DNA of 63,388 nt, taken from contig DS021200.1 in assembly GCA_001735895.1 (NCBI GenBank), positions 404,719-468,106 on the forward strand, in the 5' to 3' direction. The stretch's first letter is position 1; every line of letters begins with the position of its first letter. The translations under genes and the position numbers were made by a program. The notes beneath the pieces are model-generated. The model saw only the letters and a program-made list of their open reading frames with translations. It did no database searches and was not told the origin of the DNA. The stretch is from Olavius algarvensis Gamma 3 endosymbiont (GTDB lineage: Bacteria > Pseudomonadota > Gammaproteobacteria > GCA-001735895). Positions 49,393 through 50,915 of this stretch are shown here, one piece after another.

Positions 49393-49630
49393 TTGCTCCA
49401 AGTGCTCAGGGTAGTCGGGGGGGAATTTCCGCGCTCCGGGTGCGTGCTTTGGTTATGGCCGTGCCCGGGCGCCACCCGAATTATCAGTTGTGGTTCAAAA
49501 CTTTTAACTCATTCCAGAGCCAAGGTCAACCGCTGCCGTCGCCTTCGAGTGCACCGTTACTGCCGCTTTCAAACTGCGGCAATCCATCATTGATTGCATA
49601 TTAACCCGGCGACAATATATGTTGCATTCA

Positions 49631-49727
49631 GCCATCGCGTGTCTGTTCACAGCAAGGCATCAGAACTTGCTGCAGTTATTCTGCAGCAAGTTCTGATAAC
49701 GCCGTCTGTGGGCAGACACGCGATGGC
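49631..49727. repeat. Left hairpin unit of the MITE
   Basis: Outer stem GCCATCGCGTGTCTG (49631-49645) pairs perfectly with 49713-49727. Inner stem CAGAACTTGCTGCAG (49661-49675) pairs perfectly with 49681-49695 around the loop TTATT. Between them CACAG/CTGTG and GGC/GCC also pair, giving one long, nearly continuous hairpin. Confidence 0.9.
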
Positions 49728-49754
49728 CTCTCTTGTTTAATATCAATTTGTTAG

Positions 49755-49850
49755 GGGGCCCAAGAAAGCGCCAGCTCCGCGTTGCAACTCTTGCCAATGG
49801 AATGGCCATTGGCGGCGAGTCGCGCCTTGATCTGACGCTTTCTTGGCCCC
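49755..49850. repeat. Right hairpin unit of the MITE
   Basis: CCAAGAAAGCG (49760-49770) pairs perfectly with 49836-49846 and the stem continues outward past a one-base bulge. The core has GCCAATGG (49793-49800) opposite CCATTGGC (49806-49813) with a 5-base loop. The stretch between the two stems pairs only partly. Confidence 0.85.
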
Positions 49851-50240
49851 TGAATACGACATATATTGTCGCCGGGTTAATGGTATTGTCCGGCCTCGCA
49901 TACATAAATGTGTCCAATTGTTTTCAACGCCGCGCTATCGTCCAGTGATCCCGCAGCTACCGCTATCCGGTCACGCCCATCGCGCGCATCCCAGAACAGG
50001 CTTGCGCCGCAGCGATTGCAGAATCCGCGGTAGGTATTCGGCGACCGATCGTGATACCACTGCAGGGTCTGCTGTCCGGTTAAGCGCAAATCGGACCGAT
50101 GCAGCGAAGTATAGGCGGCATAATTACCGTGGGTGCGGCGGCAATTTTCGCAATGGCAATTGACGACATTCCTCTGGGGTCCGGTTATTTCATAACGCAG
50201 ACCGCCGCAAAGGCAACCGCCGCTCAGCTTGTTCGAATTA

Positions 50241-50915
50241 TCAGCGCTCACTCGAAACCTCCAATATCGGCATTATTTCGTCAAAGGAATGGATCGCATT
50301 GAAATGTTCGATCTCGCGCCGCGGCGCCTGTGAATCGGGCTGATAAATGGCAAGCAGGGTGGCAATACCGTATTCCTGCGCCGACTGCAGGGCGTGCAAG
50401 TTGTCATCGATCAACAGCGTTTTATCCGCCGTGAAGGGATGCCGCTTGTGAACTTCGTGCCAGCACTGCGGATCTTCCTTGGGCAATGAGAATTCGTGCA
50501 CCGTAATCAGCCGGTCGAACTTGTGCGCGATTCGAGTCTTATCCATTTTTAAGGAAAGACTATCGTGATGCGCGTTGGTTACCATAACCACATCCTTGCG
50601 CGCGGCGCGCAAGGCATCCAGAAAATCGATACAATAGGGCCGGATTGCAACCTTGTGGCTGACTTCGTGCTTGAGTTCGACAACATCGACTTCGAGCATT
50701 TCACTCCAGTAATCGGTCGAATACCAGTTGAGACTGCCCTCGATTTTCCTGGTTTGGGTAACGATGTGCTGTTTCGCGGTTTGTGGGTCCATGCCTTTGA
50801 TTTCGGCATATCGCAACGGTAAATACTCCTGCCAGAAATAATTGTCGAAGTGCAGGTCGAGTAGCGTACCGTCCATATCGAGCAGCACCGTTTCGATGCC
50901 TTGCCAGTCGATCAC
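50241..50915 (-). CDS. yrfG: GMP/IMP nucleotidase YrfG-like HAD hydrolase
   Basis: 224 residues. HAD motifs: VLLDMDGTLLDLHFDNYFW (motif I), VMVTNAHHDSL (motif II), the Lys in HEFSLPKEDPQCW, and LLIDDNLHALQSA (motif IV). The FDNYFWQEYLPLRYA segment is typical of YrfG, which dephosphorylates purine monophosphates. The downstream GFA gene begins inside its last codons. Confidence 0.88.
   Translation of the reverse strand: MIDWQGIETVLLDMDGTLLDLHFDNYFWQEYLPLRYAEIKGMDPQTAKQHIVTQTRKIEGSLNWYSTDYWSEMLEVDVVELKHEVSHKVAIRPYCIDFLDALRAARKDVVMVTNAHHDSLSLKMDKTRIAHKFDRLITVHEFSLPKEDPQCWHEVHKRHPFTADKTLLIDDNLHALQSAQEYGIATLLAIYQPDSQAPRREIEHFNAIHSFDEIMPILEVSSER

Follow-up and report, generated by a model that had tools for sequence, protein, structure and literature searches.

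The locus raises the question of what a 280-bp repeat with inverted ends and two long hairpins represents: a transposon remnant of the ordinary kind, or a mobile element with a conserved structure of its own. Bacterial MITEs are usually seen as decayed transposon remnants, without conserved function and with a narrow host range. The window, a stretch of 63,388 nucleotides from the Olavius algarvensis Gamma 3 endosymbiont, had been described in the first-pass annotation as containing a MITE-like element at 49601-49880. These coordinates proved exact, matching both the ends of the other copies and the empty sites described below. The features of the element are collected in Table 1.

Table 1. 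Features of the element in the window (R1, covariance model of the hairpin module, used for genome sampling)
Feature	Position	Strand	Basis
Whole mobile element, 280 bp, without target duplication	49601..49880	.	Ends of the copies; empty sites fit 280 bp plus TA
Duplicated target, left copy, TA	49599..49600	.	Sequence; TA rule in 39/51 elements of other hosts
Duplicated target, right copy, now TG	49881..49882	.	Sequence; TA or TG in other copies
Left inverted end	49601..49631	+	Arm complementarity; 10 bp after TA shared with IS630
Right inverted end	49850..49880	-	Arm complementarity
Hairpin module 1	49632..49726	sense on +	R1 63.3 bits, E 6e-14; strand asymmetry in 58 elements
A+T-rich spacer separating the modules	49727..49754	.	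CCC-NNN-GGG mini-hairpin in other hosts
Hairpin module 2, inverted homologue of module 1	49755..49851	sense on -	R1 84.4 bits, E 2e-19, with a model partly built from close relatives

The two genes flanking the element are on the minus strand; one encodes an HxlR-type regulator, the other a GFA-family protein, and the element's end contains the stop codon of the GFA-family gene (window 49877-50251). The inverted arms (49600-49631 and 49850-49881) are 32 nt long and 94% complementary; the ends (TTAACCCGGCGACAATATATGT...) pair perfectly over the outer 22 bp, where 20 bp had been noted earlier, and over 31 bp with two mismatches. Both long hairpins previously described between them are present: hairpin 1 (49631-49727) has outer arms of 22 nt (91%) and inner arms of 17 nt (100%), and hairpin 2 (49756-49850) has 22-nt arms (86%). 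Folded as RNA, the element reaches -181.6 kcal/mol, against -88.9 +/- 5.1 in 200 shuffles (z -18.2), and the plus strand folded as DNA gives z -18.6; no shuffle came near the folding energy of the element in either case. Folding of both strands, which had been proposed as a check, thus placed both as RNA, and the plus strand as DNA, about 18 SD below dinucleotide shuffles.

Fourteen full-length copies, together with fragments, are present in the same genome (4.87 Mb, 22 contigs), the 13 others having 84-97% identity to the window element. When the copies are aligned with their flanks, identity ends at one common position on both sides. Empty sites were queried with the joined flanks of three gene-interrupting insertions (caiB-like, tagA and truD, names assigned by eye), and relatives within the genus carry uninterrupted orthologues, about 24 for the caiB-like gene, one for tagA and five for truD. 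At the junction, each uninterrupted caiB-like gene lacks 6 nt relative to the joined query, which retained ATTAAT, and the insertion fits the change of CATCCTAATATC into CATCATA[TTAACCC...GGGTTAA]TGATATC. This empty site indicates an insertion of 280 bp plus a duplicated TA, now read as TA and TG. In several copies of the same genome only one flank reads TA, the other being TG, CA or AA; the right-hand TG of the window copy presumably arose by mutation. The copies and empty sites exclude a unique sequence fixed at one locus and never absent from it.

Among elements of other hosts, TA is symmetric on both sides in 39 of 51, and the reconstructed targets (n=39) read CTAG in 16, CTAA in 6, TTAG in 4, TTAA in 4 and otherwise in 9, that is, YTAR in 30 of the 39. 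Members of the IS630 family are described as inserting at TA, which is duplicated, with a preference for CTAG (PMC2170065 and a title cited there). The YTAR target, mostly CTAG with its TA duplicated, together with the flanks therefore indicates a transposase of the IS630/Tc1-mariner type. It may be added that YTAR targets include TAA or TAG; with a stop codon inside the target, insertions at gene ends may be harmless.

The absence of a transposase, pointed out in the first-pass annotation, holds for the element itself, whose open reading frames match no Pfam family, but the same genome has a matching IS630 at another place. A search with DDE_3 revealed an intact IS of 1,104 bp (L341) encoding one transposase of 347 aa, assigned to IS630 by NCBIfam (227 bits, cut-off 100). 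The first 10 bp after the TA at the left end of the element (TTAACCCGGC) are identical to those of this IS, whose ends (TATTAACCCGGCAATAAAATAG...) have the same first 12 bases as the window element; the inner half of the element's end is unlike this resident IS630. A second IS630 (L347, 1,246 bp, two separate frames) was found in genome G236, and its ends (CTAGTACATCGACCAGTTTATATTGACGG) match elements from three further genomes (25/29, 25/29 and 26/31 positions). The hairpin module was absent from both IS when searched with R1, which means that the element did not arise from such an IS by internal deletion. The MITE-like nature is shown by the many copies, the clean empty sites, the target with its TA duplication and the ends in common with an autonomous IS630 of the same genome, and these shared ends suggest that an IS630 transposase moves the element in trans. 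DDE_3 (IS630) genes are absent from 67 of the 101 carrier genomes in the class sample, and the link to IS630 comes from two end lineages. Searches with end patterns for a complete IS in five Betaproteobacteria returned mostly pairs of 150-270 bp and unpaired ends, and in genome G050 no pairs of IS length.

The two hairpins, taken earlier as separate units, are indeed both present but not unrelated, being inverted copies of one module of about 97 nt. The module consists of (i) a stem P1 of 18-24 bp; (ii) the loop pair CAAGGC / AACGCNG; (iii) a stem P2 of about 6 bp; (iv) a second internal loop, NGCAGG or GCCGC / CAAG; and (v) a stem P3 closed by a loop of 4-5 nt. Across hosts the internal loops are constant and the stem sequences free. 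Already among 20 copies of the family, 51 of 96 pairs are altered on both sides, and when 42 diverse modules are aligned, almost without gaps, all 34 named pairs vary on both sides, with pairing kept in 88% of cells. The covariation score of this alignment is 0.918, against 0.222 when shuffled and 0.14-0.24 when the 3' side is slid. The 42 modules were chosen for P1 complementarity, which favours the P1 figures; P2 and P3, not chosen in this way, pair at 92% and 90%. Nearly all of 52 diverse elements follow one plan, in the order outer stem, module, usually a CCC-NNN-GGG stem, and inverted module; elements of about 160-200 bp with a single module also exist. The earlier judgement that the element is more elaborate than a simple MITE is borne out because this architecture is conserved across the phylum with covarying stems. 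As a separate observation, element copies from four species (L014, L036, L071 and L042) have in common an extension of about 36 nt, GGCCCAAGGCATTCGCTGCGCTCATGGGGCCGGC on the sense strand, that lengthens the tip of hairpin 2; they form an extended subfamily.

In genome sampling, R1 matched 101 of 274 genomes (85 of 221 genera) from the class and 97 of 299 (46 of 154 genera) from the phylum, some of the latter lying outside the class. A pattern scan with one genome per species found at least 119 stretches, including named Gamma- and Betaproteobacteria. No viral contig carried the exact module pattern, and blastn with two element types as queries found none on plasmids. Elements lying wholly within their loci mostly measure about 246-306 bp with ends of 20-26 bp, and these ends differ completely among host groups (TATTAACCCGG, CTAGTACTCTTTCAA, CTAGTGTCCTGTC, TAGGGAACCTCTGAA and others). 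One core under many end sequences suggests that new IS630-type ends have been acquired, or that the ends co-evolve with transposases. Such a core, with all stem pairs covarying and present in about one third of the sampled phylum genomes, implies strong and ancient selection on the core and a cellular partner.

The strand on which each module is selected was examined in 58 elements, folded without G.U, by counting single mismatches inside helices, with only those pairs kept that form on both strands. On the plus strand, G.T outnumbers A.C in hairpin 1 (45 to 16), and A.C outnumbers G.T in hairpin 2 (43 to 5; read on the minus strand, these are 43 G.T and 5 A.C); for the outer stem of the inverted ends the counts are 41 G.T and 31 A.C. 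Per-element sign tests gave p 5e-4 for hairpin 1, 2e-7 for hairpin 2 and 0.23 for the inverted ends. The asymmetry is robust to the use of a single element for each end type, with means of 32:10 (hairpin 1), 2:29 (hairpin 2) and 24:19 (ends). The mismatches are spread over many positions of the helices, and in 14 young copies the sense strand shows no bias of substitution (10 C>T against 11 G>A, small numbers). The opposite asymmetry of G.T and A.C means that each module is kept pairable while single-stranded, on the strand that reads inwards from the end nearest to it; statistically, hairpin 1 is selected single-stranded on the plus strand and hairpin 2 on the minus strand. The inverted ends behave like plain double-stranded recognition sites. 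The earlier suggestion of excision as single strands therefore does not fit the ends, which look like ordinary double-stranded IS630 ends; the hairpins nonetheless bear the mark of selection as single strands. Since the senses lie on opposite strands, only one sense module, the first met on entry, is present per transcript or DNA strand. These data are compatible with either read-through RNA arriving from either side or single-stranded DNA, and they predict a sense hairpin in one of these two forms from either side of an insertion.

With good confidence, the element can be regarded as a MITE of a family that is mobilised by IS630 and whose conserved, structured core would act as RNA or as single-stranded DNA. 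Transposases of the IS630/Tc1-mariner type would cut the inverted ends of this non-autonomous MITE in trans, and it would be inserted at the TA inside YTAR, mostly CTAG, with duplication of the TA. The modules being mirror images, a polymerase coming from either side first meets a sense module, which may then work as RNA in host transcripts that continue into the element; as a signal for processing, stability or anti-polarity, for instance, it would make insertions tolerable in both orientations. Such a role in host read-through transcripts is tentatively put forward as the likeliest reason for the strand selection. Whether the whole amounts to a so far undescribed, phylum-wide class of structured selfish element, with a mirror-paired single-strand hairpin module (RNA or ssDNA), interchangeable IS630-type ends and a defined cellular partner, is an evenly balanced proposition.

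The main alternative to the RNA role, possible though less probable, is that the module acts as single-stranded DNA, a hairpin at each transposon end being bound by an HUH (Y1/RAYT) enzyme or another ssDNA-binding partner, in a REPIN-like unit with IS630-like ends. Each end does have one sense hairpin, on the strand starting there. Genes of the Y1 type (HUH, Y1_Tnp) are commoner in carriers (87 of 101) than in non-carriers (99 of 173; OR 4.6), an association uncorrected for genome size and mobile-element load, and 14 carriers have none. A further point concerns the inner stem of hairpin 1, reported earlier as perfect, which it is, although this is peculiar to the window copy: at 49659-49697 it reads AACTTGCTGCAG, a perfect 17-bp palindrome, whereas the other copies read AACGCCGCTGCAG, the full ones having GCC where the window copy has TT. 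This resembles the correction of a quasi-palindrome by template switching, as may occur on ssDNA, and would be a hint that this strand folds during DNA synthesis. Against the single-stranded-DNA role stand the DDE-type features, namely the TA duplication and the long inverted ends, and the lack of a GTAG or CGTC tag, as found in REPs, at the foot of the segmented modules inspected by eye.

It is improbable, and strongly disfavoured, that the element is an ordinary IS630-type MITE whose hairpins are passive by-products of an inverted dimer, conserved by descent alone. The ends alone suffice for mobility, and long stem-loops are described in other bacterial MITEs as well (PMC2229807), but passive descent gives neither stem pairs of which 34 out of 34 vary on both sides around constant internal loops nor an asymmetry of G.T and A.C that is opposite in the two hairpins. 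A trans-acting small RNA gene or bound RNA component (guide, regulator or ribozyme-like RNA) with its promoter at the inverted ends, to which the inward sense direction from both ends, the near-invariant loops and the deep covariation could point, is very improbable, as the ends vary wholly among hosts and so cannot hold a conserved promoter, no promoter-like site was found inside the window copy, Rfam 15 returned no family at the gathering score (just sub-threshold plant miRNA hairpins), and the many copies per genome speak against a dosage-sensitive regulator.

The nearest precedent of a MITE with IS630 ends is RUP of Streptococcus pneumoniae, for which mobilisation by IS630-Spn1 has been proposed (PMC2229807). 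Like the window element, RUP is described as protein-free, with inverted ends similar to those of an IS630 in the same genome, insertion into TA and many chromosomal copies; it differs in its size of 107 bp, in being reported from one species and, by that account, in having no inverted twin module or phylum-wide core. Correia/NEMIS and ERIC are likewise described as small TA-flanked repeats forming stable stem-loops in their transcripts, those of NEMIS being proposed RNase III substrates (PMC2229807), whereas their length (about 107-155 bp and 127 bp, respectively), single long stem, unshared module and restricted host range, as given there, set them apart. REPIN/RAYT systems resemble the element in their mobile unit of two inverted hairpins, single-strand hairpin selection and high copy number (PMC3116915). 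In contrast to the 97-nt module, REPs measure 20-40 bp and carry a GTAG or CGTC tag (PMC3733652), and REPINs are described without long inverted ends or TA duplication.

Two further families share some of these traits. QMITE1 of Coxiella burnetii is a gammaproteobacterial MITE of 300-400 bp with a very stable fold and ends of 21-28 nt, and is transcribed (PMC5896051); it is set apart by its described IHF site, variable duplications of 2-4 bp and DUF1658 peptides. A link to QMITE1 through DUF1658 was rejected, there being no Pfam matches in the element's reading frames. CIR of Caulobacter and Brucella consists of two long inverted repeats, that is, two arms and a linker, kept across genera, but is described without inverted ends, with a GANTC motif in the loop and as another sequence family (PMC2229807).

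Other identities were rejected. For a Tn3-derived miniature element (IMU/TIME), R1 found no match in plasmid pCHE-A, which we take to carry IMU, and the target is TA instead of a 5-bp duplication. Skipping-rope RNA, integron attC and bridge-RNA found no support in Rfam, and no attC-type boxes were seen by eye. The bacterial MITE and REP literature consulted, mostly open access, describes no phylum-wide covarying twin module, though descriptions from single species may exist. While IS630-type MITEs themselves are known, the strand-selected, conserved structural core within one appears to be new.

The same genome (G000) also contains shorter sequences derived from the ends. One-sided half ends (GTCGCCGGGTTAATA and similar) are fused to unrelated sequence, for example at L262, L263, L264, L266, L269, L272, L277 and L278. 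At L260:1335-2985 (G000:C1), convergent half ends 1.65 kb apart enclose a glutamine-amidotransferase-like gene together with a second small gene but no transposase, so that an autonomous copy was rejected, and the pair probably consists of two chance half-ends, or else represents a mobilised gene cassette. In addition, the two ends alone make up some 20 palindromes of about 37 bp (TATTAACCCGGCGACAATATATGTCGCCGGGTTAATA) outside the window (L053-L068, L261, L265, L270, L274 and L276). They are probably deletion scars of the element: the two ends contain the near-palindromic CGACAWATATWTGTCG, and slippage between them would leave palindromes of about 37 bp and half ends. In G050, where the ends lack such a palindrome, truncated remnants are found instead. 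The palindromes are possibly mobile themselves. Several of them carry compensatory changes.
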